Source of the DNA: a virus
Direction: 5' to 3' (one strand)
Length of the DNA: 45,238 nt
IMG/VR virus record: IMGVR_UViG_3300013010_002606
Span: 1 to 45,238 of that record
The position numbers and the translations under genes are program-made. Position 1 is the stretch's first letter. Each line of letters starts with the position of its first letter. The notes beneath the pieces were generated by a model. It was not told the origin of the DNA. It saw nothing but the letters and a program-made list of their open reading frames with translations, and ran no database searches. Below, one piece after another: positions 4,325 to 27,926 of the stretch.

Positions 4325-6082
4325 TTATCTAGTACCGTTTGGCAATAGAGAATAGTCAACCTGATAGAAACCATTTTCATGTAATGTAACTGCATTTGCA
4401 TACTTTGTTTCAAGTAGTTCTTGTGCCATTACACCTTTTTGTTTTACACTATCACCAACATAGTTATAAGTATAAACACTAAGACCATCAACTGTGCTAA
4501 CTAGTTTTACATTTTCTTTGAGGCGAGTATCACTGAAGAGTTTCTTAAATGATTTACCTACAGATTTTGCTGCATCCTTGGCTGCTTTTGCTGCGGCATT
4601 CGCTGCATCTTCTGCGGCTTTTGCTGCGGCATTCGCTGCATCAGTGATTGCCTTCGATGCATCATTAATTGCATTATTACAAGTATTGATAGCATCATTG
4701 CAACCTTTAATTGCTGTATTCGCATCATTCAGCATATTTTGTGCGCTGAATGTTTTTTCTGTCCAGTTAGCAACATCATTTGCTGCATTTGTTATTGCCT
4801 TACCTGTATCCTCAATAGCCTGTCCTGTGTCATCTACCGCTTTTTGTGCACTTTTATAAGTTTGTTCTGCTTGGTTCGCTACATCGTTTGCAAGTTTTTC
4901 AGCATCTTTGGCTGCTTTAATTGCTTCATCTTGTGCCTTATCGATTCCATCAGTTACGTGATCCATTGCATCTTCAATTGTTCCACCAGCATCAAGGATT
5001 GCTTGTGCACCATCTACTAGTGGACCAATATCAATATCAACATCAACATCAATATCTAATCCAACAAGTAATGCAGCCTTACCATCAATACCGAAACTGA
5101 TTGTGTCATCTTCATATGTAGCGTGTGCAGAACCTTGTACCCCAACTTGTGCGCCCACACTCACTTCAGTACTACCTGATACTTCGGCACCGCCCAAATG
5201 TGCTGACCCACTTGCTTCTGCACCTACACTAGCACCCGCAATGGCACCCGCTTCCACTGACGCACCGTGTTCGCCGATACTTGCACTTGCACCTGCTTCA
5301 GCATATGCTTCAGCATGTACATTCGCTTCACCGTCTGCGCCGGCATCTATTGAAATATCACCTAATGGCGTATCTAGGCCGACACTTGCATCTACTGATC
5401 CACTTGCTCCTGCTTCTGCACGTGCACTTGCGCCAACAGACGCAGCAGCCGTTGCATCACTGCCATCCCAGCCTCCACTCGCATTAGCGTGTGCTTCTGC
5501 TTCTGCACTTGCGTGTGCTTCTGCTTCGCCTTCTGCATCAGCGTGGGCTGTTCCTAATGGACCTAAATCTTGCTCTGCATGTGCTTCCGCAATTGCGCTT
5601 GCACTTGCTTCCGCACTTGCGTGTGCTTCTGCACCTGCTGCAAAGGAACTGCCATCTGATTGAAATCCTGCACTTGCGCCTGCCTCTGCACTCGCACTTG
5701 CTTGCGCACTACCGCTTGCTCCTGCCTGTTCGTTTCCCACTGACCCACCAGTTTCAACTGATGTACCTGCCGCAACATTAACGGTATATTGTGGTTTAGA
5801 AACTTTTAAAACATTCGCTTGTGCATTAGTAACAGCGGCCGTGGCAGCATTATAATCTGCCTCTGCTTGTTTTTCCGATGCCTCTGCTGCCGCATGGTCT
5901 GCCTCCGCTTTATCATGCGCTGCTTGTGCATCACGTTGCTGTTTTTCTGCAGATGCTTTTTTGGCTTCTGCGTCTGCTTTGTCTTTTTGCGCTTGTGCCT
6001 TATCTGCTTGCGCTTTATTTTTTTTGTCTTGTTCTTGGGCTTTTTGTTGTTCTGCCCGTTTTTTGTCGTCCTCGGCGCTCAT
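4325..6082 (-). CDS. Ala-rich fibre-like protein with C-terminal S74 chaperone domain
   Basis: 585 residues. Residues 1-95 are a charged Lys/Ala/Gln coiled coil. About 120-340 is low complexity with Ala at nearly every second position (ASAEASASAIAEAHAE), a silk-like pattern suited to extended beta structure. About 345-510 is a second, Ala/Asp/Asn-rich helical stretch. The last 70 residues (from FSDTRLKENVKLV) match the start of the Peptidase_S74 intramolecular chaperone, where cleavage is between Ser and Asp of SDxRLK in known members. The domain is short, as in many marine phage fibres. AAAGGAATAA precedes the ATG. Confidence 0.85.
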   Translation of the reverse strand: MSAEDDKKRAEQQKAQEQDKKNKAQADKAQAQKDKADAEAKKASAEKQQRDAQAAHDKAEADHAAAEASEKQAEADYNAATAAVTNAQANVLKVSKPQYTVNVAAGTSVETGGSVGNEQAGASGSAQASASAEAGASAGFQSDGSSFAAGAEAHASAEASASAIAEAHAEQDLGPLGTAHADAEGEAEAHASAEAEAHANASGGWDGSDATAAASVGASARAEAGASGSVDASVGLDTPLGDISIDAGADGEANVHAEAYAEAGASASIGEHGASVEAGAIAGASVGAEASGSAHLGGAEVSGSTEVSVGAQVGVQGSAHATYEDDTISFGIDGKAALLVGLDIDVDVDIDIGPLVDGAQAILDAGGTIEDAMDHVTDGIDKAQDEAIKAAKDAEKLANDVANQAEQTYKSAQKAVDDTGQAIEDTGKAITNAANDVANWTEKTFSAQNMLNDANTAIKGCNDAINTCNNAINDASKAITDAANAAAKAAEDAANAAAKAAKDAAKSVGKSFKKLFSDTRLKENVKLVSTVDGLSVYTYNYVGDSVKQKGVMAQELLETKYANAVTLHENGFYQVDYSLLPNGTR

Positions 6083-8679: not shown

Positions 8680-9119
8680 TATTTAAATCCTTTTTCTTTC
8701 ATTAATTGATTATGTTTTTCTATGTATTCATCTTTAAACTTTGGATGATTTGCATAATAATTTGCACCTTTACCACCAGTATGTGCAAGTCTCACACTAC
8801 CTGGAAAACCATCGACATCATCTTTGTGTCTAGGGATAAAATGAATATGAGGCCACATAACTGTTTGTCCTGCGGCTTCGCCCATATTCATACCAAAATG
8901 ATAAGCATCAATCTTGCCTTCATTTCTAAGAGCATCACCATATTCAATGGTTGCTTCTAATGCAAGTGTGATAAATTTTATATTATTTTGTCGAGGGACA
9001 AAAAGTAAGTGTCCATCACACACCGGCCATTTATCTTCATAAACTGCATAATAATATTCATTGCGAAGCCGAAGATGTTCTGATTGCTCAAAGGGGGTGT
9101 CTTCAAATTTTTCAATCAT
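8679..9119 (-). CDS. HIT-family nucleotide hydrolase/transferase-like protein
   Basis: 146 residues from the ATG at 9119, which overlaps the end of the nucleosidase gene by 8 bases; a longer frame up to 9182 is only a shadow of that gene. The fold signature DGHLLFVPR followed by GEAAGQTVMWPHIHFIPR is that of Hint/Fhit-like proteins. The first His of the HxHxH triad is Trp89 here, while the nucleophilic middle His (His91) and last His (His93) remain. Members hydrolyse dinucleoside polyphosphates or nucleotidyl-amino acids. The substrate is unknown. Confidence 0.88.
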   Translation of the reverse strand: MIEKFEDTPFEQSEHLRLRNEYYYAVYEDKWPVCDGHLLFVPRQNNIKFITLALEATIEYGDALRNEGKIDAYHFGMNMGEAAGQTVMWPHIHFIPRHKDDVDGFPGSVRLAHTGGKGANYYANHPKFKDEYIEKHNQLMKEKGFK

Positions 9120-9828
9120 GCCAGATATCCAAAACTGGCAATAAATGTGAAACAACCATCGCCGATTTTTTTGAACTATCATCTACGAATGTATCGAAAT
9201 CTGTATGCGAATCTTCTCCTGCGAGATCACTTAGTACTCTGACAACAATGAATGGCACATTACATTGGCAACATACTTGTGCCAAAGCAGCACCTTCCAT
9301 TTCGATAGCATCAGCATTAAATTGATTGTAAAACATTTCTCTAGTCTGCGAACAACTAAGATACGTATCGCCAGTTAGTATTGTTCCAAATTTTACATTT
9401 CTTCCCAAATGTGATTGTAAATATTTTCGCATTTCACTACTCATTTCAAATGAAATTGGATTAGTTGAATCTTCCAATGCTGGAAAACTTCCAGGTAAAC
9501 TAGAGTATACTTCTCCGTTTACTATGGCGCCATAATCATGTTGAATAAGTTTGTCTGCAATTATTACATCGCCGATGTTATAGTTTGGATTTAGTCCACC
9601 CGCAACACCACTAAACACGATACTATTACATTCAAAATGAGAAATTAATATGGTAGTTACAACTGCAGTGTTTACTTTTCCAATACCAGACTCAACTGCA
9701 ATGATATCAATATCATTAATCTTACCAATTTGAAATTTCTTTTTCATAACTGTTTTAGTTACTGGTTCATTATCCCATTCAATTTTTGAATATTCTTCTG
9801 GAATAGCGGAAATCATTCCGACTGTCAT
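9112..9828 (-). CDS. mtnN: 5'-methylthioadenosine/S-adenosylhomocysteine nucleosidase
   Basis: 238 residues, typical length. The family start GMISAIPEE (general acid Glu), the FSGVAGGL block, the MEG motif at 177-179 that binds the ribose, and RVLSDLAGEDS with catalytic Asp201 are all present. The enzyme splits adenine from MTA, SAH or 5'-deoxyadenosine, relieving product inhibition of SAM-using enzymes. In a phage it could support DNA or RNA methylation or interfere with quorum-related methyl metabolism. It is translationally coupled to the HIT gene. The corrinoid protein at 20908-21597 may belong to the same methionine cycle. Confidence 0.94.
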   Translation of the reverse strand: MTVGMISAIPEEYSKIEWDNEPVTKTVMKKKFQIGKINDIDIIAVESGIGKVNTAVVTTILISHFECNSIVFSGVAGGLNPNYNIGDVIIADKLIQHDYGAIVNGEVYSSLPGSFPALEDSTNPISFEMSSEMRKYLQSHLGRNVKFGTILTGDTYLSCSQTREMFYNQFNADAIEMEGAALAQVCCQCNVPFIVVRVLSDLAGEDSHTDFDTFVDDSSKKSAMVVSHLLPVLDIWHD

Positions 9829-9831
9829 TAA

Positions 9832-10566
9832 TTAATCCTCTTCAATATTATATTCTAGTCTATAACTTATTGCTAGGTGGCCCTGCATACTATTATTTAT
9901 ATTTTCATTATATACTACGACATCAGAAATGTCAACGTCTATATTACTTACTAACTTATCTAAATTTGATGGGATGTGGTCTGGTACATACCAAGTATCA
10001 TATTCATCTAAATGTGATTTGAAGCCATACTTATCTAACAGATGTTTGGTAGTTTCATCTTGCGGTGATCCAGGAATAGTATGAAAATCACCAGCAATAA
10101 TAGTAGGTCTATCTTTATAAAGATTTAATAAAAACTCAATATCTGATCTTCTATCTAAATCGTTTATAAGTATTGAATTATTATCATTATTATCTTGCGG
10201 ATAACAGGGCAAAAATGTAATGATATTTACATTGTCGAGTTGTGCCCGTAATGCTGTGCAGCCTTGAGATTTATTATTTTTACCAATTTCTATCACCTTT
10301 TCATAGGACGGCAAAATAACACTTTTCATCTTTGAAAATGGATGACCAATATGATTTTTTCCCATTGCAACACATAAATTGCCTACCCCAGGAGTAGATT
10401 CTAGTAAGAATAGTCTGCAATCTAATACATTTTCTATTTCTTTTTTTGCTTCCATTGGCACACGCTGTAATAGGAATACATCTGCATCTTTTGCTGCCCT
10501 GCGTAAATAGTCTATTCCGCGCTGCATTGCATCCATATTATATTGTAATAATTTAATACTGGGCAT
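9832..10566 (-). CDS. Endonuclease/exonuclease/phosphatase-fold protein with degenerate active site
   Basis: 244 residues. The N-terminal strand LLQYNMD and the central IIAGDFHTIPGS (159-167) place it in the EEP (DNase I/ExoIII) fold. Three usual catalytic positions differ: the metal-binding Glu of the QE motif is Arg35, the Asn of GDFN is His162, and the final SDH is replaced by GH (229-230). It may be inactive, or use other residues, or be a binding protein. The gene sits between ClpS and the nucleosidase with 4-base gaps, so it is in the same transcript. Confidence 0.7.
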   Translation of the reverse strand: MPSIKLLQYNMDAMQRGIDYLRRAAKDADVFLLQRVPMEAKKEIENVLDCRLFLLESTPGVGNLCVAMGKNHIGHPFSKMKSVILPSYEKVIEIGKNNKSQGCTALRAQLDNVNIITFLPCYPQDNNDNNSILINDLDRRSDIEFLLNLYKDRPTIIAGDFHTIPGSPQDETTKHLLDKYGFKSHLDEYDTWYVPDHIPSNLDKLVSNIDVDISDVVVYNENINNSMQGHLAISYRLEYNIEED

Positions 10567-10570
10567 TAAA

Positions 10571-10885
10571 TTATTCAGCAGGTTCTATACTAGTTGCAAG
10601 AGTAAAGCCATTGTTTCTGGCCGCGCGAGTGGTTTCCTCAACTTTTTGTTCTGCTATTTCCATATAGTACATACCAACAATAGCGTTTCCTTCTTGATGA
10701 ATTTTGGCTGCTAAATCGGTTGATGTTTCAGATGTATGATTAAATAGTTTTATTAATACTTCAATCACAAAATCAAATGGTGTGGTATCATCATTGTGCA
10801 TTAATACATAAAATCTTTTAGGGGCATTCAATTCTAAATCTATTTCATTAAGACTTGATGTTAATGTTTGTTCATCTGCTATCAT
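10571..10885 (-). CDS. clpS: ClpS N-degron adaptor
   Basis: 104 residues, standard ClpS length. The core runs from FYVLMHNDDTTPFDFV through LAAKIHQEGNAIVGMYYMEIAEQKV to ARNNGFTLATSIEPAE. The pocket residues that hold an N-terminal amino group are kept (Asn31, Asp32, Asp33, His63). The hydrophobic gatekeepers differ: the residue matching E. coli Met40 is Phe37 and the one matching Met62 is Ala59, so specificity may be altered, as in ClpS2-type proteins. Known ClpS proteins hand substrates to ClpA; no clpA is in the window. A hairpin and late-type box lie upstream. Confidence 0.94.
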   Translation of the reverse strand: MIADEQTLTSSLNEIDLELNAPKRFYVLMHNDDTTPFDFVIEVLIKLFNHTSETSTDLAAKIHQEGNAIVGMYYMEIAEQKVEETTRAARNNGFTLATSIEPAE

Positions 10886-10913
10886 AATTTATTATCCATG
10901 TTTTCGTGCTGAA

Positions 10914-10921
10914 TATTTATT
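10914..10921 (-). promoter_or_regulatory. Late-type promoter box upstream of clpS
   Basis: Minus-strand AATAAATA (one mismatch to TATAAATA) between the terminator after hsp20 and the clpS ATG at 10885. Confidence 0.45.
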
Positions 10922-10952
10922 AAAAAGAGAGAAATATTTCTATTTCTCTCTT
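10921..10952 (-). terminator. Rho-independent terminator after hsp20
   Basis: A perfect 12-base-pair stem (10925-10936 with 10941-10952) with a four-base loop, followed on the minus strand by TTTTTA. It lies about 20 bases after the hsp20 stop. Confidence 0.8.
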
Positions 10953-10970
10953 AATATTATATCACAATTG

Positions 10971-11387
10971 TTAACGAATTGCAATAGTTTTTGGTTGTTT
11001 TTCCTCTGGAACTTTACGTTCCAGTGATACAAATAATAGTCCATCTTCCATAGTTGCATCAATTACTTCAACATAATCTGCTAGTTTCCATTCACGTGAA
11101 AAAGCACGGTTTGCGATACCACGGTGAAGAAACTCACGGCCTTCTTGTTCAATATCTGGTTTTGATCCAGTGATTGTAAGTAGTCCTTCTTTAATCGTAA
11201 TTTCAATATCATCACGACTAAATCCTGCAAGTGCTAATGTAATTTGATATTTGTTTTCATCGATAGTTTCTACATTATATGGAGGATATCCTGTATTATC
11301 CAAACGATTGAAATCATTTAGTAGTCTATCAAAGCCCAATACTGAGCGATGAAAATCAGGTAAGTTTAGTGTTGTTACTCTTGTCAT
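10971..11387 (-). CDS. Small heat-shock protein (Hsp20/alpha-crystallin)
   Basis: 138 residues. The alpha-crystallin domain occupies about 36-130: PPYNVETIDENKYQITLALAGF, then IEITIKEGLLTITG, a FLHRGIANRAFSREWKL segment typical of IbpA-type proteins, and DGLLFVSLERKVP. The C-terminus ends PKTIAIR, matching the IxI tail that controls oligomer assembly. These chaperones hold unfolding proteins for refolding or disposal, and many T4-like marine phages carry one. The AAAGGAGAAAA site is strong. The 66-base leader holds a small inverted repeat (GAATC/GATTC) but no clear thermometer hairpin over the ribosome binding site. Confidence 0.94.
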   Translation of the reverse strand: MTRVTTLNLPDFHRSVLGFDRLLNDFNRLDNTGYPPYNVETIDENKYQITLALAGFSRDDIEITIKEGLLTITGSKPDIEQEGREFLHRGIANRAFSREWKLADYVEVIDATMEDGLLFVSLERKVPEEKQPKTIAIR

Positions 11388-11453
11388 TTTTTTTCTCCTT
11401 TAATAAGCAAGAATGTAGAATCCCAATAGGCGATTCCAGTTAAATAAGTGTTA

Positions 11454-11984
11454 CTATTCTTTAGCAACACCTGCAAGTTTTTGTAGACGACCGATGAAAC
11501 CTACGTCATCACGTTCACCTTCAAAAACAAATGTGTTTGACTTTTTGTTGTTTCGCAACTTGGTATACATTTCGCCTGCTTTGCCAGGACTTAATGTACC
11601 TACGTCAAACATCTCGCCACCAGATTTGTCATAGACTTTAGCGCCCTCTTTATCTTTAATAAGAACACCGTCTTGATTATAACTTGCACCAAGTTCAATC
11701 ATCTGTTGACGAAACTTTTCATCTGCTCCCTCTGGAGCAATAACGAAAAGTGAATCTTCTGCCACATGCACTTCTTCTGGAGTGCCTTGATTTTCAATCC
11801 AATAGCCATCCACAAAAAAGAAGCCATAGCCTAACTTGCGAATAGTTGCCGCAAGTTGCCGGTTACGTCTTACATTTTCTTCACGATCATACTCGCCGCG
11901 AAACGCTGTCAATAGAGCAATAGGTCTATCTGATTTTGCGTGTTGCCAAATGCGTGATAACGATGCTTCTTGTACTTGTGTCAT
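11454..11984 (-). CDS. Conserved phage protein, DUF3293-like
   Basis: 176 residues, soluble. It resembles DUF3293-type proteins of phages and bacteria: a start region with ALLTAFRGEYDREENVRRN, then LAATIRKLGYGFFFVDGYW and SLFVIAPEGADEKFRQQMIELG, a layout seen in that family. The function of the family is unknown. A TTGACA-N17-TATATT promoter lies just upstream and the ATG follows GGAGAAAAA, so it starts a new transcription unit behind the bS21 gene group. Confidence 0.75.
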   Translation of the reverse strand: MTQVQEASLSRIWQHAKSDRPIALLTAFRGEYDREENVRRNRQLAATIRKLGYGFFFVDGYWIENQGTPEEVHVAEDSLFVIAPEGADEKFRQQMIELGASYNQDGVLIKDKEGAKVYDKSGGEMFDVGTLSPGKAGEMYTKLRNNKKSNTFVFEGERDDVGFIGRLQKLAGVAKE

Positions 11985-12001
11985 TTTTTCTCCTAATAAT
12001 T

Positions 12002-12030
12002 AATATAATGTATTTATTACATTATGTCAA
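12002..12030 (-). promoter_or_regulatory. Sigma70-like promoter for the DUF3293-like gene
   Basis: Minus-strand TTGACA (12025-12030), 17-base spacer, TATATT (12002-12007). The spacer also contains AATAAATA (12011-12018), a late-type box, so the two signals overlap. Confidence 0.65.
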
Positions 12031-12032
12031 TA

Positions 12033-12269
12033 CTATACACCAATTTTTTCTGAAAAAAGTACAATATTTTTTGCTGGACCTATATTACACGGCAGATCAC
12101 CATATTCATCAATATAATGTTGAATGACCGCCTTATACCATAGTTGGCTATTATGATGCGCCTGTTTATTAAATCGCCAAATACCATTACTAGACCCATC
12201 CATAGTAAGCAGTGCCCTGGATGATTCTTTTTGTAATGTTCTTAAATCTAATGTATCTAAATCTATCAT
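12033..12269 (-). CDS. Hypothetical protein, coupled to the bS21 gene
   Basis: 78 residues, soluble, with Trp and His residues in the centre (GIWRFNKQAHHNSQLWYKAV). Its ATG overlaps the TGA of the bS21 gene as ATGA, so it is translationally coupled and ends the clpX-infC-rpsU operon. No family was recognised. Its place behind a ribosomal protein gene gives a hint of a translation-linked role but nothing more. Confidence 0.7.
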   Translation of the reverse strand: MIDLDTLDLRTLQKESSRALLTMDGSSNGIWRFNKQAHHNSQLWYKAVIQHYIDEYGDLPCNIGPAKNIVLFSEKIGV

Positions 12270-12520
12270 GTATTATCTTGTTGGCGTTTCATTTTTTGCC
12301 AACGTTTACGTCCAGCATCCCTAGCCTTACGTTTGATTTCGCTTGGCTTTACAAATTCTTTTCGTGTTCTAATTTCTTGTACTAGTCCTTCTTCAGTGCA
12401 CTTTTTTTTAAATCTACGAAACGCTTTTTCGAAGTTTCCATTTTTTACTTCAACTGTCATTCCAGACTTTGCATATCTGTCACTGTCGTTTCCTTTTACA
12501 TAGTGATTATTTTTAGTCAT
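12266..12520 (-). CDS. rpsU: Ribosomal protein bS21
   Basis: 84 residues. From residue 21 the sequence follows bS21: MTVEVKNGNFEKAFRRFKKK, then GLVQEIRTRKEFVKPSEIKRK and a very basic tail. The first 20 residues are an extension; an internal ATG at residue 21 is an alternative start at 12460. In bacteria bS21 sits on the 30S platform near the anti-Shine-Dalgarno end of 16S rRNA and aids initiation. Phage copies of bS21 are known, notably in SAR11 phages. The gene overlaps the end of infC by 8 bases, so the two initiation proteins are made together. Confidence 0.93.
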   Translation of the reverse strand: MTKNNHYVKGNDSDRYAKSGMTVEVKNGNFEKAFRRFKKKCTEEGLVQEIRTRKEFVKPSEIKRKARDAGRKRWQKMKRQQDNT

Positions 12521-13037
12521 TTTTTTGTATTAAACCTGTAATTCTATTGCCATTCAATTTTAATGGCTGTTCATATTTCCAGTTGGCCAGACTGCTAGAA
12601 ATCATTTCTATAAAATATGCCAGTACATCTTGTGCCTTGGCATTCTCGCGGCCGCGCATTTGTATTGTTATTTTAACTTTAGAACCATTGTCAATAAACT
12701 TTTGTGCTTGACGCATTTTAATTTGTAAATCGTGTACACCAATGCCAGGTCTAAATTTAACTTCTTTAACTTCAATCGCGTTAGCCCTAGCAGATTTTGC
12801 TTGTTCCTTTTGTCGCTTTTTAAGTTCGTAGTTATATTTATTAATACTTACAACACGGGCTACTGGAGGCGTTGCATTCGGCACAATAAGAACCAAATCA
12901 AGATCTTCATTTCTTGCGAGTTGTTGCGCATCCGAGTTTGACATTATACCAAGTGCCTCGCCATTAGTTCCTATGATGCGTAACTCGTTAGTAGTAATAT
13001 ACTCATTAATTTTTAGTGTGGATTTGTTTTTATCCAT
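12513..13037 (-). CDS. infC: Translation initiation factor IF-3
   Basis: 174 residues, essentially full length against the usual 175-180. The N-terminal domain (INEYITTNELRIIGTNGEALG ... NATPPVARVVS) is joined by the helical KKRQKEQAKSARANAIEVKE linker to a C-terminal domain with KEVKFRPGIGVHDLQIKMRQ and GRENAKAQDVL. IF3 binds the 30S subunit, blocks 50S joining and checks start codon and initiator tRNA. A phage copy could reset start-codon selection on host ribosomes. The ATG abuts the clpX stop (TAAATG) and the gene overlaps rpsU, forming a coupled trio. Confidence 0.94.
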   Translation of the reverse strand: MDKNKSTLKINEYITTNELRIIGTNGEALGIMSNSDAQQLARNEDLDLVLIVPNATPPVARVVSINKYNYELKKRQKEQAKSARANAIEVKEVKFRPGIGVHDLQIKMRQAQKFIDNGSKVKITIQMRGRENAKAQDVLAYFIEMISSSLANWKYEQPLKLNGNRITGLIQKND

Positions 13038-14294
13038 TTATAATTTTTGTTTAACCTTTTCTTGTTCATCGAATACCAATATAGGTTCTTCATTTCCTAA
13101 AATAAATTCATCTGTAATATGTACAGAATGTAGTCCTTGACTTGCCAATTTTGGCAATTTGAATTGTATCTGTAATAGTGATTTTTCAATTACACTTCTC
13201 AATCCACGAGCGCCTGTTTCATCTGTTGTTGCTTTTCTAGCAATCTGTTCTAACGCTGAATCTGAAATAATCAATTCTACGCCATCAAGTCTAAACAATT
13301 TTTTAAATTGTGCAACAATACTATTTTTAGGTTCAGTTAATACTTGTACTAACTGATCTTCAGTAAGAGCATCAAGTCCAACAATAATTGGAAATCTGCC
13401 CATAAATTCTGGGATGACTCCATATTTTATTACATCTTGTGCTTCTACTTGCTCACGAATATTTATCTTTTTAGTTGATTTATCATACACAACCGCACCA
13501 AACCCAATACCTGCATTAGATGTTACTCTACGTTCAATGACCTTATCAATGCCAACAAATGCACCGCCAACTACAAATAGAATTTTACTCGTATCAACTT
13601 CAATCATATCAGTGCCCGGATGCTTACGTCCTCCTCCAGGAGGGACACGAATTACTGAACCTTCTACAATTTTAAGTAAGGCTTGCTGAACACCTTCGCC
13701 ACTTACATCTTTTGTGATAGATACGTTCTCACCCTTCTTGGCTTTCTTATCAATTTCGTCAATATATACAATGCCATGTTCTGCGTTTGATACATCAAAG
13801 TCGGCGGCAATAAGTAATTTCTGTACCACATTTTCCACATCATCGCCAACATATCCACTTTCAGTAAGTGACGTTGCATCAATTTGTGCAAACGGCACAT
13901 CTAAAAATTTCGCAACTGTTTTAGCAAGTAATGTTTTACCAGTGCCAGACGGTCCCATAATCATTACATTAGATTTATCTAATTCAACCCCATCACTATC
14001 ATCTGCATGTATACGTTTGTAATGATTATAAACTGCAACACTCAGTACTTCTTTTGCTTCATCTTGGCCGATGATGTGTGCGTCTAAGAATTCTTTAATA
14101 TCTTCTGGTCCAGGAAGAGAACTCATATCAGATTCACTTGTACTGGCAAACGCTTGTTTTGTGTCGTGAATGATTTCATGGCATAAGTCAACACACTCAT
14201 TGCAAATAAACTGATTTGGTCCAGCAATGAGTGTTTTAACTATGTCTTTTTCTTTGTTACAAAATGAACAAGTATAATCTTTAGTATCAGTCAA
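13038..14294 (-). CDS. clpX: ClpX AAA+ unfoldase
   Basis: 418 residues, full length. The zinc-binding domain has Cys9, Cys12, Cys31 and Cys34. The AAA+ core shows Walker A GPSGTGKT (114-121), pore loop GYVG (147-150), Walker B IVYIDEID, the RKH loop (223-225) and the IGF loop (263-265) that docks ClpP in known ClpX, followed by sensor 2 (GARGLRSV). It should unfold substrates, classically ssrA-tagged proteins ending LAA, and feed them to host ClpP; no clpP is in the window. The start is TTG, with AGGTGAT upstream. It leads the clpX-infC-rpsU operon. Confidence 0.96.
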
Positions 14295-18878: not shown

Positions 18879-18955
18879 ATTGTTCTCCTTTGTGTGTGTG
18901 TGTGTTGTGTAACTATTCTGTTGCTAGGTCAGTTACCAACCCCCACGTGCTTAAA

Positions 18956-18997
18956 TTAAGCCGCTAATGCCATTTCTGGCGCACGATTGTTATTTGC
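18956..18997 (-). other. tmRNA proteolysis-tag reading frame
   Basis: Thirteen codons plus TAA encode ANNNRAPEMALAA. The resume codon GCA and the ALAA end are as in known ssrA degrons; the C-terminal LAA is what ClpX recognises in E. coli. The other frames hit early stops. Confidence 0.93.
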
Positions 18998-19082
18998 AAT
19001 TGTGTAGTTTATTCGCGGTAACGGCGCTTATATCCCGGTAACTCCATTCATCTATCTTGTCAGTCGATCCTATTTCAGCCCC

Positions 19083-19112
19083 ATAAGAAACACACTTATC
19101 TAAATGTGCTTA
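19083..19112 (-). other. tmRNA intervening segment removed during maturation
   Basis: Thirty bases lie between the CCA end and the mature 5' G. They fold as ATAAG/CTTAT plus CACA/TGTG, so they cap the acceptor stem as a hairpin. In permuted tmRNAs this segment is cut out to give two RNA pieces. Confidence 0.85.
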
Positions 19113-19180
19113 TGGTGGAGCTGCGCGGTACTGCCCCGCGGTCCTGTCCAATCATCAAATCACTTCAACGTTACATTCTA

Positions 19181-19209
19181 TTTATAACATATTTTGATAG
19201 TGTTGTCAA
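19181..19209 (-). promoter_or_regulatory. tmRNA promoter, with superimposed late-type box
   Basis: Minus-strand TTGACA (19204-19209), 17-base spacer, TATAAA (19181-19186). The -10 is part of TATAAATA (19179-19186), a perfect T4-late-type box. Over about 35 bases it is nearly identical to the promoter at 20292. Confidence 0.88.
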
Positions 19210-19213
19210 TAGA

Positions 19214-19246: not shown

Positions 19247-20218
19247 TCAAAGTCCGTTAGGCACAATGATATAATGAATCATTAGCACAAGAGCCACTGA
19301 GGCACCTAAACCAACCATCATCTTGCCAAAGTCCTTAGCAACTAGTGGAAATACTGACTTCGTTTTCTTTTTACCAAAGTATGTTGCCATTGCAAGTTCT
19401 CTACCTGCAAGCAATCCCACGAATACCCAAGTTGTTGACATTGGAATATCGTTTAGTTCTTTGAAGAAGTATAAGCACAACCAATAGAACAAGTCAATCA
19501 GCGTTGCTGACCTCACGTATCTTGTGTTGTGTTTCTCTAATACAATCTGTTGTATCTTACCGCCGCGTTCTTTAAACATAAAGAACAAGCCTACTACAAA
19601 CACCGCACTGATAAACATCATTAGGTCAACTGGAATAACTCTTGGTAAGAACACTGCAATGTTGGCAATGTCATGACTCAGCCATGTCCACCATAAGCCG
19701 CCTGTGGCTACCCATTGTGCGATGCGCCAGTAGTTTTTGTTGCTTTCGCTAACTGGCTTTGTTTCATCATACCATTTGCCAAAGTATTTGTGCATTGCAA
19801 ACCATACTACATATGCAAAGCCTGCCGCTACACCATAGCCCATGATTGATTTCATAAGCATTTTCTCCAGTACAAATGTACTAGCAAATACAGACAATAC
19901 TAGGAATGATGTTGATACAGGTACACCCATTCTAGTTAGCGCAACTAGGATAAGAGGCGCTGCAGCATGATACCACTGTACTTCTTGCCACGGAATCTTA
20001 TTAAGTCTACCGTAACTGATGTCGCCACCATTTACAGTCCAGCCATACCATAGTGTGGCCAATAGGACAGCGGATGCCGCTATCCATAATGTTTTGTAGT
20101 TGAATCTCTCATTGTTTGATGCCATCCATGTACCGAGAGTTTGTACTGAATCATTGGCTATTACTGCATAGGCAGCAAGTAGGAACCCTACCAGGCTCCA
20201 TAGAGTGAGTGCGTCCAT
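19247..20218 (-). CDS. Pit-family inorganic phosphate transporter
   Basis: 323 residues with about eight to ten hydrophobic segments. The family signatures are present: ANDSVQTLGT (21-30, the GANDxxN-type motif), GVPVSTSFLVLSVF, and a second half with SHDIANIAVFLP and DIPMSTTWVFVGLLAGRE. It is shorter than bacterial PitA (about 500), as in other phage or compact PHO4 proteins, lacking the large loop. It would import phosphate across the inner membrane by H+ or Na+ symport, useful for DNA synthesis in phosphate-poor sea water. It has its own strong promoter and terminator and a GAGGAGAAAAC site. Confidence 0.92.
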   Translation of the reverse strand: MDALTLWSLVGFLLAAYAVIANDSVQTLGTWMASNNERFNYKTLWIAASAVLLATLWYGWTVNGGDISYGRLNKIPWQEVQWYHAAAPLILVALTRMGVPVSTSFLVLSVFASTFVLEKMLMKSIMGYGVAAGFAYVVWFAMHKYFGKWYDETKPVSESNKNYWRIAQWVATGGLWWTWLSHDIANIAVFLPRVIPVDLMMFISAVFVVGLFFMFKERGGKIQQIVLEKHNTRYVRSATLIDLFYWLCLYFFKELNDIPMSTTWVFVGLLAGRELAMATYFGKKKTKSVFPLVAKDFGKMMVGLGASVALVLMIHYIIVPNGL

Positions 20219-20907: not shown

Positions 20908-21597
20908 CTAAATTGAATTATGTTTACGGTTCATAAACATTTTTGCTGTTTCAACTGCGACTGCTGCATCTCTACAATACGCATCTGCACCAATTGCTTT
21001 TCCAAATTCTTCATTTAGTGGTGCACCGCCTACTAGTATTGTATAATCATCACGCATACCTTTTTCAATCATTACATCAATAACAACCTTCATATAAGGC
21101 ATTGTGGTTGTAAGTAATGCACTCATACCTAATATATCTGGATTATGTTCTTCGATTGCATCAAGATAAGCCTGAACATCGTTATTAATACCAATATCGT
21201 GTACATCAAATCCTGCACCTTCCATCATCATACCAACTAGATTTTTACCAATGTCATGTATATCACCTTTGACTGTGCCGATTACCATAGTGCCAACTTG
21301 TGGTGCTCCTGTTTCAGCAAGTAATGGTTTTAGAATTGCCATGCCACCCTTCATTGCGTTTGCTGCTAGTAATACTTCTGGTACAAATAATATACCATCA
21401 CGGAAGTCTATGCCCACAATAGTCATTCCAGCAACCAGTGATTCTGTTAGTACACGATATGGTTCCCAACCACGTTCTAAAAGAATATTAGTACCTTCTT
21501 CGACTTCCTCTTTGAGACCATCATACAAATCGTCTCCCATTTGAATTACAAGTTCATCGTCCGATAACTCTGATAAAATAATTTCATCTTCATTCAT
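20908..21597 (-). CDS. Corrinoid (B12-binding) methyl-carrier protein
   Basis: 229 residues from the ATG at 21597; a TTG at 21615 is less likely. Residues 10-95 form the helical B12-binding_2 cap (LYDGLKEEVEEGTNILLERG). Residues 100-225 are the Rossmann B12 domain with the DxHxxG motif as Asp112-Ile-His114-Asp-Ile-Gly117; His114 would be the lower cobalt ligand. The rest (MSALLTTTMPYM, ILVGGAPLN, GADAYCRDA) follows the MtbC/MtaC and MetH module. No methyltransferase partner is in the window, so it may work with a host split methionine synthase or another corrinoid methyltransferase. Confidence 0.93.
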   Translation of the reverse strand: MNEDEIILSELSDDELVIQMGDDLYDGLKEEVEEGTNILLERGWEPYRVLTESLVAGMTIVGIDFRDGILFVPEVLLAANAMKGGMAILKPLLAETGAPQVGTMVIGTVKGDIHDIGKNLVGMMMEGAGFDVHDIGINNDVQAYLDAIEEHNPDILGMSALLTTTMPYMKVVIDVMIEKGMRDDYTILVGGAPLNEEFGKAIGADAYCRDAAVAVETAKMFMNRKHNSI

Positions 21598-21623
21598 AAT
21601 ATAATACTCTTTCAATTATCATA

Positions 21624-24918: not shown

Positions 24919-25070
24919 TCAGATTTCCAGATAGTCCACGCACCATATGCAATTGCAGCATATGCAATTAAATCAACTGGTACGAGAAGCATTGCAAATC
25001 CAGTTGCGATTAGTGCTACTCCATCAAGTGTTGTACGTTCTTTTAGTCTGTTTTTAATCCAATTAATCAT
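24915..25070 (-). CDS. Small two-segment membrane protein (51 aa)
   Basis: ATG at 25070 preceded by GAGGAGAAAAAAA, TGA at 24915. After a basic N-terminus (MINWIKNRLKERTTLDG) come two hydrophobic segments (VALIATGFAMLLVPV and LIAYAAIAYGAWTIW). The frame overlaps both neighbours by 4 and 8 bases in an operon arrangement. Short proteins of this type (KERTTLDG ... AYAAIAYG) occur in T4-like marine phages. Function unknown; a partner for the exporter upstream or a holin-like role are both possible. Confidence 0.78.
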   Translation of the reverse strand: MINWIKNRLKERTTLDGVALIATGFAMLLVPVDLIAYAAIAYGAWTIWKSE

Positions 25071-25992
25071 TTTTTTTCTCCTCTGTTAATTTATTATAAA
25101 ATAATTCTTCGTCTGGACAATTATTATGTTCAATCTGAATAGTAGTATGTATTATTTTATAGTTATCGATTAATAGTTTCTTGGTATTATATATTGTATC
25201 ATCGCATTCGCCATCATCCAATATATTGATGTGCATAGCGGCTGAAATTTGTCCACTAGCCAATTCCCATATATGTACATGGTGTACATTATTAACATGA
25301 TCTACATTTGTCATAATATCTCTTATTATAACATCAATATCGATGTGTTCTGGTTTTCCAGTCATTAATATTCTAATACAATCTTTTAATAATTCCCAAC
25401 CACTTTTTAATATCAAACTGGCAAGAAGCACACTTATAATAGGATCAATATAATACCAATCTGTAAAGTATATTACAATACCACCTATAATGGCACCAAC
25501 ACTGCCTAAAATATCAAGTAAGATATGAAGTATCACTCCTCGCATATTAATATTATGACCATCATGATGATGATGTACTATTTTAAATAATATCAAATTA
25601 ACGATTAATCCAATAATCGCAATTGGTAGCATCCAATATATATCAACATGCTCAGGGTTTAGTATTCGATAAATTGCCTCATATATAATATATGCAAAAA
25701 GTCCTATCCACATAAGTGCATTTAAAAATGCTGCAATAACTTCTGCTCTCATAAATCCATATGAATATGTATCTGTTGGTGGTTTTCTACCAATCCAGAA
25801 TCCAAATACTGCAATAATCATTGCTAGTGCATCGGTTGAAAGATGTAAAGCATCACTCAATAACGCAAGTGAATTACTTATGTGTGCACCAAATAGTTCA
25901 ATGACAACAAATAATACTAAAATAATAATACTTATTTTTAATGCACGTTCTTCTTTACCTGCTGTTCTTATATGATACTGATTATGTTTCAT
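25063..25992 (-). CDS. Cation diffusion facilitator (zinc/cadmium-type exporter)
   Basis: 309 residues with six hydrophobic segments. The metal site of CDF proteins is visible: SNSLALLSDALHLSTDAL with the HxxxD pair His50/Asp54, and the second HxxxD in HILLDILGSVG. A His-rich loop (HHHHDGH) lies between segments 4 and 5, typical of zinc exporters of the ZitB/CzcD group. The cytoplasmic C-terminal domain (HHVHIWELASGQISAAMHI) is complete. It would export Zn, Cd or Co in exchange for protons. It is unusual in a phage. Its ATG overlaps the epimerase stop as ATGA. Confidence 0.94.
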   Translation of the reverse strand: MKHNQYHIRTAGKEERALKISIIILVLFVVIELFGAHISNSLALLSDALHLSTDALAMIIAVFGFWIGRKPPTDTYSYGFMRAEVIAAFLNALMWIGLFAYIIYEAIYRILNPEHVDIYWMLPIAIIGLIVNLILFKIVHHHHDGHNINMRGVILHILLDILGSVGAIIGGIVIYFTDWYYIDPIISVLLASLILKSGWELLKDCIRILMTGKPEHIDIDVIIRDIMTNVDHVNNVHHVHIWELASGQISAAMHINILDDGECDDTIYNTKKLLIDNYKIIHTTIQIEHNNCPDEELFYNKLTEEKKND

Positions 25993-27055: not shown

Positions 27056-27084
27056 TTGTTTTTTGTGTTTTTTAGTGTTATATT
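27056..27084 (+). promoter_or_regulatory. Sigma70-like promoter for the DUF1127 cassette
   Basis: Plus-strand TTGTTT (27056-27061), 17-base spacer, TATATT (27079-27084). The -35 is weak. Confidence 0.5.
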
Positions 27085-27086
27085 AC

Positions 27087-27094
27087 TATAAATA
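27087..27094 (+). promoter_or_regulatory. Late-type promoter box for the DUF1127 cassette
   Basis: Perfect TATAAATA on the plus strand, three bases after the sigma70-like -10, 101 bases before the first ATG. Confidence 0.55.
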
Positions 27095-27100
27095 AAAGTG

Positions 27101-27194
27101 TAAGATAAGCGACCTCAGCTTATAAAAAATGAGTGGCACTGGGAAAGACTAGGGTATTGCTTCCCTCAAGCATCAGACAATTTGGAGAACCTAT
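27101..27194 (+). promoter_or_regulatory. Structured leader RNA with CCUC loops before the DUF1127 cassette
   Basis: Hairpin 1 is ATAAGC/GCTTAT (27105-27110 with 27118-27123) with loop GACCTCA; its CTCA can pair with TGAG at 27130-27133 after an A-rich linker, making an H-type pseudoknot. Hairpin 2 is GCTT/AAGC (27159-27171) with loop CCCTC, which can pair with AGGG at 27151-27154. CCTC in both loops is also complementary to the ribosome-binding GGAG at 27184-27187. The leader may control translation of the cassette. It recalls the CCUCC-loop 'cuckoo' RNAs tied to DUF1127 genes in Rhodobacter, but in a different order. Confidence 0.55.
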
Positions 27195-27383
27195 ATGACA
27201 CTAAATGTATTTAGTGCCGTAGCAAATCTTTTTGGAGGATTTGCTAGTAAGGCAACAAAACGCTCAGACTTGATGACTTGGGCAAAAACAGAATATGCAC
27301 GTGATTGGCAATTTGCTTATAATTACATGCTAGACAATGATGGCAAGGCGCCATCACACAGACACATACAAGGAATAAAGTAA
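27195..27383 (+). CDS. First small basic protein of the DUF1127-like cassette
   Basis: 62 residues (MTLNVFSAVANLFGG ... APSHRHIQGIK), amphipathic at the N-terminus and basic at the end. GGAG is 7 bases before the ATG. The stop overlaps the next ATG as TAATG. It has no clear family itself, but it opens a four-gene coupled set whose second member is DUF1127. It is the only plus-strand block between 2.2 and 45 kb. Confidence 0.75.
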   Translation: MTLNVFSAVANLFGGFASKATKRSDLMTWAKTEYARDWQFAYNYMLDNDGKAPSHRHIQGIK

Positions 27384-27619
27384 TGATTAACAAATTAATC
27401 GCAACACTCACAAACATTCGAAATACAATGGATTATAACAAAAAAGTACGTCAGACAATTAGAGAATTATCAGCACTATCAAACTATGAACTAAATGATA
27501 TCGGTATTTCACGTGGCGAAATTCATCATATTGCACACACATCATATAAAAAGTCAGTAACGGTCAAAGCCGATGATGTACGTGTTAGTATAAATGAAAA
27601 TTTGAGAGGATTTGTATAA
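27383..27619 (+). CDS. DUF1127 (YjiS-like) small protein
   Basis: 78 residues. The C-terminal half RQTIRELSALSNYELNDIGISRGEIHHIAH is the DUF1127 signature (helix-turn with NYELNDIGISR). In alphaproteobacteria these Arg-rich proteins are abundant; CcaF1 of Rhodobacter binds RNA and affects RNA turnover. The start overlaps the preceding stop by one base and the stop overlaps the next start (TAATG). A phage copy could affect host RNA fate, inferred from family knowledge only. Confidence 0.88.
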   Translation: MINKLIATLTNIRNTMDYNKKVRQTIRELSALSNYELNDIGISRGEIHHIAHTSYKKSVTVKADDVRVSINENLRGFV

Positions 27620-27792
27620 TGACAACATTAGTAATGGAATATACAATTAATCCTTTTTGGAACGCATTACGTGCATTTGCTCATGGCACATGGGCATTAA
27701 TGGAATCGATAGGTAGAGCAAGAGCCGCCGCTGAATTGCATCGCCTAGGTTATACAAAAGAAGCAAAACGCTTGATGTTGGAGATCAGATAA
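27619..27792 (+). CDS. Third small protein of the cassette (57 aa)
   Basis: ATG in a TAATG overlap. 57 residues, MTTLVMEYTINPFWNALRAF ... ending with EAKRLMLEIR. The C-terminal ARAAAELHRLGYTKEAKRLM resembles the helix of short DUF1127-type proteins and repeats the pattern of the fourth gene (AIRELRNKGLYREAQRI), suggesting duplication. Confidence 0.75.
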   Translation: MTTLVMEYTINPFWNALRAFAHGTWALMESIGRARAAAELHRLGYTKEAKRLMLEIR

Positions 27793-27926
27793 TGTGGAAT
27801 AGATTTATTAAAGCAATGGAATACCGTTCATACTGTATGGCAATTCGTGAATTACGTAACAAAGGCTTATACAGAGAAGCACAACGTATTAGTGAATACA
27901 AGTACAATATGTATCCTACTAATTAG
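27792..27926 (+). CDS. Fourth small protein of the cassette (44 aa)
   Basis: ATG in a TAATG overlap with the third gene; 44 residues (MWNRFIKAMEYRSYCMAIRE ... YNMYPTN) with the helix AIRELRNKGLYREAQRISEYK, similar in pattern to the third protein. It stops 14 bases before the convergent gene on the other strand. Confidence 0.72.
   Translation: MWNRFIKAMEYRSYCMAIRELRNKGLYREAQRISEYKYNMYPTN

Follow-up and report, generated by a model that had tools for sequence, protein, structure and literature searches.

The leader upstream of a tiny-gene operon in an uncultured marine phage belongs to a structured RNA family that is common to more than 100 phage contigs and follows a T4-type late-promoter motif. 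Base pairing is borne out by compensatory changes in its hexaloop stem, in the H-type pseudoknot adjoining that stem and in a further pseudoknot at its 5' end. Comparison with relatives strongly supports the conserved structured leader RNA of the original prediction, and the check proposed there, covariation across related phages, revealed compensatory changes. This RNA probably controls the timing or strength of tiny-gene translation late in infection.

The window, i.e. the whole stretch of 45,238 bases analysed (IMG/VR virus record IMGVR_UViG_3300013010_002606), carries genes of T4-like phage type such as tail-fibre-like and exonuclease genes, and searches with two test proteins found no cultured close relatives of this phage. 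Its tiny-gene operon (27195-27926) runs on the strand opposite to the neighbouring genes and consists of four overlapping ORFs (Table 1), which share TAATG at all three junctions (27381-27385, 27617-27621 and 27790-27794), as originally described, and are probably translationally coupled through this overlap. The four-ORF set and its gene order recur in related contigs. No terminator was found within the operon, and no intrinsic terminator releasing a separate short RNA was found at the locus. The earlier assignment of all four genes to DUF1127 holds for gene 2 alone, which matches PF06568 with 44.0 bits (Pfam cut-off 23.3), whereas genes 1, 3 and 4 match nothing in Pfam, PF06568 included, and neither gene 3 nor gene 4 aligned with gene 2 at the profile level (hhalign probabilities 0.2-0.5%); in each of the related contigs tested there is a single DUF1127 place. 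Gene 1, which also has no match in NCBIfam, is predicted by AlphaFold2 with modest confidence to be helical (mean pLDDT 69.6) and has 223 relatives in viral contigs by protein search, while relatives of gene 3 occur in bacterial-MAG contigs and in the cultured phage Melnitz.

Table 1 Leader elements and genes of the operon in the window.
Feature	Position	Strand	Basis or remarks
T4-type late promoter motif TATAAATA	27087..27094	+	sequence match
5' module, H-type pseudoknot	27105..27133	+	alignment A8
GGCA, then hexaloop hairpin CUGG-GAAAGA-CUAG	27135..27152	+	hairpin itself 27139-27152; 63 distinct homologues
Tail module GGUAUUGCUUCCCUCAAGCA	27153..27172	+	hairpin UGCUU/AAGCA, loop CCCUC
Shine-Dalgarno GGAG of gene 1	27184..27187	+	sequence
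Gene 1	27195..27383	+	62 aa, family with WAKTEYxxDWxxAY
Gene 2	27383..27619	+	78 aa, DUF1127 protein
Gene 3	27619..27792	+	57 aa, family with GRARAAAELxRxGYxxEAKxLM
Gene 4	27792..27926	+	44 aa, family MxxRFIKAMEYRSYCMAIRELR

The putative late promoter is a motif match that, as a string, is not above chance across the whole window; what makes it convincing is solely where it lies from leader to leader, with a TAAATA core preceding 109 of 112 distinct leaders and 50 of the 51 leaders found by gene 1 protein alone. Late promoters of the related phage Melnitz have been described as TATAAAT (PMC9004378). Transcription would start at about 27100, and the leader structure begins within ~5 nt of that expected start. 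In the 5' module, a stem (27105-27110 with 27118-27123) is followed by an A-rich connecting loop, and CUCA in the hairpin loop (27114-27117) pairs with UGAG (27130-27133). Both hairpins with CCUC-holding loops that had been predicted are present in the window leader (GACCUCA at 27111-27117 and CCCUC at 27163-27167), as is the GGAG ribosome-binding site of gene 1; a pseudoknot between GG (27153-27154) and CC (27164-27165) is probable in the tail. The conserved element ends within ~25 nt of the start codon, an ATG. Single-sequence folding gave no excess stability for the whole leader (z = +0.38), and hairpin 1 alone was more stable than its shuffles (z = -3.0). A leader peptide, encoded by a possible 21-codon GTG ORF (27133-27198) that overlaps the gene 1 start as ATGA, was considered as the cause of conservation and rejected: its start codon is absent in L041, L027 and L079 (L003 has ATG there), and tails differ by CCC/TCC, which is non-synonymous in its frame.

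Searches with the gene 1 and gene 2 proteins yielded related contigs that carry the same operon. Positions 27134-27175 show full or near identity across the nine sequences formed by the window and eight relatives, with the tail module identical throughout, whereas flanks and genes vary; L017, L041 and L079, more distant loci that were also retrieved by protein, have changed in sequence and kept the architecture. The tail pattern GGTATTGCTTYCCTCAAGC occurs in at least 119 stretches of IMG/VR viral contigs, for which a rough estimate predicts about one or fewer chance matches in such a collection, and nearly all matches listed lie directly 5' of a small-ORF start codon, mostly of the gene 1 family. 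Such a scan fixes the tail by construction, so it was repeated with gene 1 protein alone, and the best 80 of its 223 relatives yielded 51 distinct leaders; here and throughout, counts are of distinct sequences and not of independent events, as IMG/VR contigs overlap in origin. At least one NRNAGA hexaloop hairpin is present in 50 of these 51. As for the tail, 34 leaders have the canonical form, 6 a close variant, 8 GGTATCATGCTAACC and 2 GGATGCTTTCCC; one, L220, has no tail and lacks the element altogether. Hexaloop hairpins number 1.46 per leader versus 0.028 in dinucleotide shuffles (~50-fold) and have 35 different stem sequences.

Across leaders the order of elements is late promoter, 5' structure, one to four hexaloop hairpins (exact tandem repeats included), tail and Shine-Dalgarno. 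Many phages have the H-type pseudoknot RAGC-GACCUCA-GCUY-N8-UGAG as their 5' structure, and others an unrelated hairpin, as in L003 and L041, where a different hairpin without CCUC stands at the place of hairpin 1. Hexaloop hairpins have the loop NRNAGA with a G-C closing pair and GRCR just 5' of them, and the main hairpins lie directly 5' of an H-type pseudoknot made up of S1, the loop strand S2a, S1', the linker UUACAA(GU) and S2b; the last pseudoknot of a leader is its tail. The repeatable module comprises GRCR, a 4-5 bp NRNAGA hexaloop hairpin and the H-type pseudoknot, to which some phages add lone hexaloop hairpins or a second module. Among unpaired positions, the NRNAGA loop, GRCR and the UUACAA linker are fixed, with loop drift in some copies (GUAGCA in L026, L028 and L046; AAA as the loop of many second hairpins). 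Loop 1 varies in sequence, e.g. to CUUC, and tail loops occur as CCCUC, UCCUC, UCCUU, AACCU and AACCA. Some gene-2 leaders bear other simple hairpins, and upstream of gene 2 in L046, L049, L052 and L053 we observed a second leader-hairpin family with a covarying stem (CUAGCAGGUGCUAG, CUAACGGUUGUUAG), then ACUCGGAUCACAC.

The pairing evidence comes from alignments A8-A11, which were anchored by hand-chosen registers. In the hexaloop stem (A9, 63 distinct copies), 99.6% of cells are paired versus 63.8% in shuffles, 95 cells have changed on both sides versus a shuffle mean of 22.9, and the covariation score is 0.79 as compared to 0.15 in shuffles and 0.15 in the best slid register; shuffle controls leave relatedness in, and slid-register controls keep relatedness yet score far lower. 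The 5' pseudoknot (A8, 20 distinct copies) has constant spacing; pair 3 of its stem is A-U in 11 copies and G-C in 9, and pair 10-29 of the pseudoknot helix is C-G in 18, U-A in 2 and broken in none. Its loop-closing A-U is lost in 3 copies, in which both positions change together though not to a standard pair, and the outer two stem pairs of this module are poorly kept and should be taken as optional. In the seven gene-1-type modules (A10), 77 of 77 cells are paired and all three helices contain double changes, the pseudoknot helix occurring as GCU/AGC, GUC/GAC, GUU/AAC and GCA/UGC, while the second module type (A11, 21 copies) is 96.4% paired with 23 double-change cells versus 7.6. The original proposal that both CCUC loops could form pseudoknots with nearby bases therefore stands for hairpin 1, where A8 contains compensatory changes. 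Because the pairs of the window-type canonical tail hardly vary, we infer its pseudoknot (GG with CC, GCU with AGC) from the covarying modules to which it is homologous; in the window, the third pair of this pseudoknot is mismatched. A permutation test of the second-hairpin loop against the downstream linker gave 3.16 versus 2.91, above 200 of 200 permutations; many copies share sequence, which makes this test weakly informative, and fixed-register counts were therefore used.

R1, a covariance model of the hexaloop hairpin, has a single match in the window (27135-27157, E 5.5e-5), and in 13 large phage records (50-237 kb) with matches at E < 0.01 it marks one leader locus each. A second occurrence of the leader motif elsewhere in the phage genome was considered and rejected, with pattern matches falling within genes and R1 giving no second significant locus. 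The window leader has no match in Rfam 15 (which includes PreQ1, SAM types, Glutamine, manA and wcaG) even at E up to 10, and the leaders of eight related loci have none at E up to 1; relaxed thresholds gave chance matches only, apart from a genuine glutamine riboswitch in another part of L079 (RF01739, 49 bits, 87-140 on the minus strand, near the operon), a contig that is filed as a Flavobacteriales MAG and looks like a misbinned phage. Nothing similar to the leader DNA was found among cultured phages at the nucleotide level, and on four cultured-phage DUF1127 loci R1 gave a chance-level match only (E 0.94). The cultured methylophage Melnitz (L031, 2073-2659) has homologues of gene 3 and of the DUF1127 gene behind the TATAAATA motif with a different leader, and it is a possible laboratory system for the operon.

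Operons behind the RNA vary in composition. Of 103 operons, 91 carry a gene 1 signature and 55 a DUF1127 signature, while 34 have a DUF3563-like signature and no DUF1127 signature within 1.3 kb with the same RNA present; the RNA therefore follows the operon and gene 1, not DUF1127. The DUF3563-like gene occupies the DUF1127 position (PF12086, E 4e-9 in L085 and below the cut-off in L086). In L017, L049, L050 and L052 the RNA precedes gene 1 on its own. In L004 (about 4605-4829), L006, L078, L082 and L168, the place of gene 4 is taken by a protein resembling ATP synthase subunit c (PF00137, 48.8 bits, E 8e-13), for which no match was found in cultured phages. Downstream of the operon in L086, L096, L165, L187 and L050 are proteins that we take to be pseudoazurin or blue-copper-like (..IDMLNKR..ITWLPASKGHNVHFIAGPDGW).

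We favour, at roughly even chances, a model in which a cis-acting late leader binds a trans-acting factor, most likely a protein, and thereby controls translation or decay of the operon. The late transcript would start near 27100 with the structured RNA at its 5' end, the modules would provide a set of binding sites for the factor just upstream of the unstructured A-rich ribosome-binding region, and binding would turn translation or decay up or down for all genes of the overlapping operon, acting in cis as the leader pseudoknot of T4 gene 32 does. The element lies after the TAAATA core and directly before the Shine-Dalgarno of the first small gene, in support of a leader role, and this location right before the ribosome-binding site of a probably coupled operon makes control of translation or decay the simplest reading. 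Stems change while unpaired bases are fixed, which is the pattern of a recognized RNA, and the variable number of repeated hairpins suits an array of protein sites better than one aptamer. The single leader locus in each large record and the conservation of the operon behind it also speak for this model. Against a trans-acting factor, loop sequences drift in some copies and L220 lacks the element; moreover, tandem pseudoknot modules would also fit a metabolite riboswitch, each hairpin-plus-pseudoknot module being an aptamer and the tandem arrangement sharpening the response. Compact pseudoknot modules in tandem with conserved unpaired bases adjoining the ribosome-binding site, the leader-type RNAs manA and wcaG of marine T4-like phages (PMC2864571) and the glutamine riboswitches known in related marine phages (PMC9004378), with one near the operon in L079, all speak for a riboswitch, but lone hexaloop hairpins occur in variable number, no metabolic gene is consistently found downstream and no known aptamer matches, which leaves this reading quite unlikely. 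A small but real chance remains with a passive 5' stabilizer or translation enhancer that guards the late mRNA from 5'-dependent decay and keeps the ribosome-binding site open with no specific factor. Structure so close to the expected start site, the exchange of the 5' pseudoknot for an unrelated hairpin in L003 and L041 and the simple hairpins in some gene-2 leaders are all in line with it; a mere clamp, however, would need neither fixed unpaired NRNAGA, GRCR and UUACAA nor conserved pseudoknots.

Autogenous control by the DUF1127 protein appears improbable to us. Gene 2 encodes such a protein, over half of the operons carry its signature, and CcaF1 of Rhodobacter, after which this idea is modelled, binds RNA and helps to process sRNAs from its own transcript (PMC10253847). 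However, the targets bound by other DUF1127 proteins are sensor kinases, PhoR or SsrA, and for YjiS there is no evidence that it binds RNA (PMC12501420). Because about one-third of the operons carry DUF3563 instead, with the same RNA, autoregulation by DUF1127 is unlikely as the sole explanation, and the leaders in which the RNA stands before gene 1 alone also argue against it. Antitermination or polymerase-modifying leaders are exemplified by HK022 put and lambda boxB RNA, and tandem hairpins directly after a promoter, in an operon opposite in strand to its neighbours, could be read in the same way. We nevertheless regard such a function as very improbable here: the element reaches so close to the start codon that it suits translation better, the operon contains no terminator that we could find, and T4-type late transcription is not known to rely on antitermination elements. 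The originally proposed mechanism, in which free CCUC loops would, like the CcsR sRNAs, act as anti-Shine-Dalgarno sequences that target GGAG in cis or host mRNAs in trans, is barely tenable. CCUC is indeed in both loops of the window and its nearest relatives, but its claimed complementarity to GGAG has the wrong orientation (5'-CCUC-3' pairs with 5'-GAGG-3', and 5'-GGAG-3' with 5'-CUCC-3'). Loop 1 pairs in cis with compensatory changes and is therefore occupied rather than free for host mRNAs, tail loops vary to AACCA, hairpin 1 can be replaced by a hairpin without CCUC, and no terminator would yield a separate RNA. We also tentatively propose, as somewhat short of an even chance, that these RNAs represent an undescribed class of phage riboregulators with variable-number tandem hairpin-plus-pseudoknot modules, which would head late transcripts in a large group of uncultured marine T4-like phages, sense a phage or host factor or a metabolite and gate an operon of tiny proteins that possibly act on the host.

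Precedent for the favoured trans-factor model comes from T4, whose gp32 is a translational repressor of its own gene and binds a pseudoknot in the leader (PMC3014915). The gene 32 leaders of T4, T2 and RB69 share with the RNA described here an H-type pseudoknot upstream of an A/U-rich ribosome-binding region (PMC3014915), and the pseudoknot upstream of the ribosome-binding site is supported here by compensatory changes in A8, A10 and A11. The gene 32 leader differs in that it precedes the gene of a single-strand DNA binding protein, whereas the tiny proteins here are of other families, with no match of genes 1-4 to the gp32-type single-strand DNA binding family; nor has a counterpart of the hexaloop-hairpin modules been described for it (PMC3014915). 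The manA and wcaG motifs are likewise structured RNAs of leader type, nearly confined to marine sequence and T4-like phages and of unproven function (PMC2864571), and differ from the leader RNA in the genes downstream and in that the leader RNA has no match in Rfam 15. The CcaF1-CcsR (CIN1) system of alphaproteobacteria combines a DUF1127 gene with repeated homologous small RNA structures in one transcript (PMC10253847). There, four sRNAs lie downstream of the gene, whereas here the repeated structures form an upstream leader with the conserved loop NRNAGA, often with no DUF1127; the leader also holds CCUC and no CCUCC, in loops that vary among relatives. The close parallel drawn originally to the Rhodobacter CCUCC-loop sRNAs thus reduces to a loose analogy. 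The leader attenuator of duf1127-1 in S. meliloti likewise places a DUF1127 gene under mRNA-leader control (PMC12218461), a likeness in outcome only, as this attenuator needs a translated upstream ORF with C-rich codons, whereas no upstream ORF start is conserved here.

Structured leader RNAs in phages are few, and in a 2010 review of T4 the pseudoknot of gene 32 was described as perhaps the sole viral one with a use in translation autoregulation (PMC3014915). Here, a modular, covarying RNA without an Rfam match occurs in more than 100 marine phage contigs and marks an operon of tiny proteins, DUF1127 and DUF3563 among them, which points to a testable late-infection control circuit.

Elsewhere in the window, a protein at 19247-20218 resembles a phosphate permease by eye with no family match, and a link to phosphate is not claimed. 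At 18906-19213 on the minus strand lies a permuted tmRNA gene of alphaproteobacterial type (Rfam RF01849, 123 bits); phage tmRNAs of this type have been described before, in Melnitz and other phages (PMC9004378). Finally, host-type genes are present at 9112-14294, 20908-21615 and 25063-25992, and comprise ClpX, ClpS, IF-3, nucleoside phosphorylase-like, B12-binding domain and cation efflux genes.
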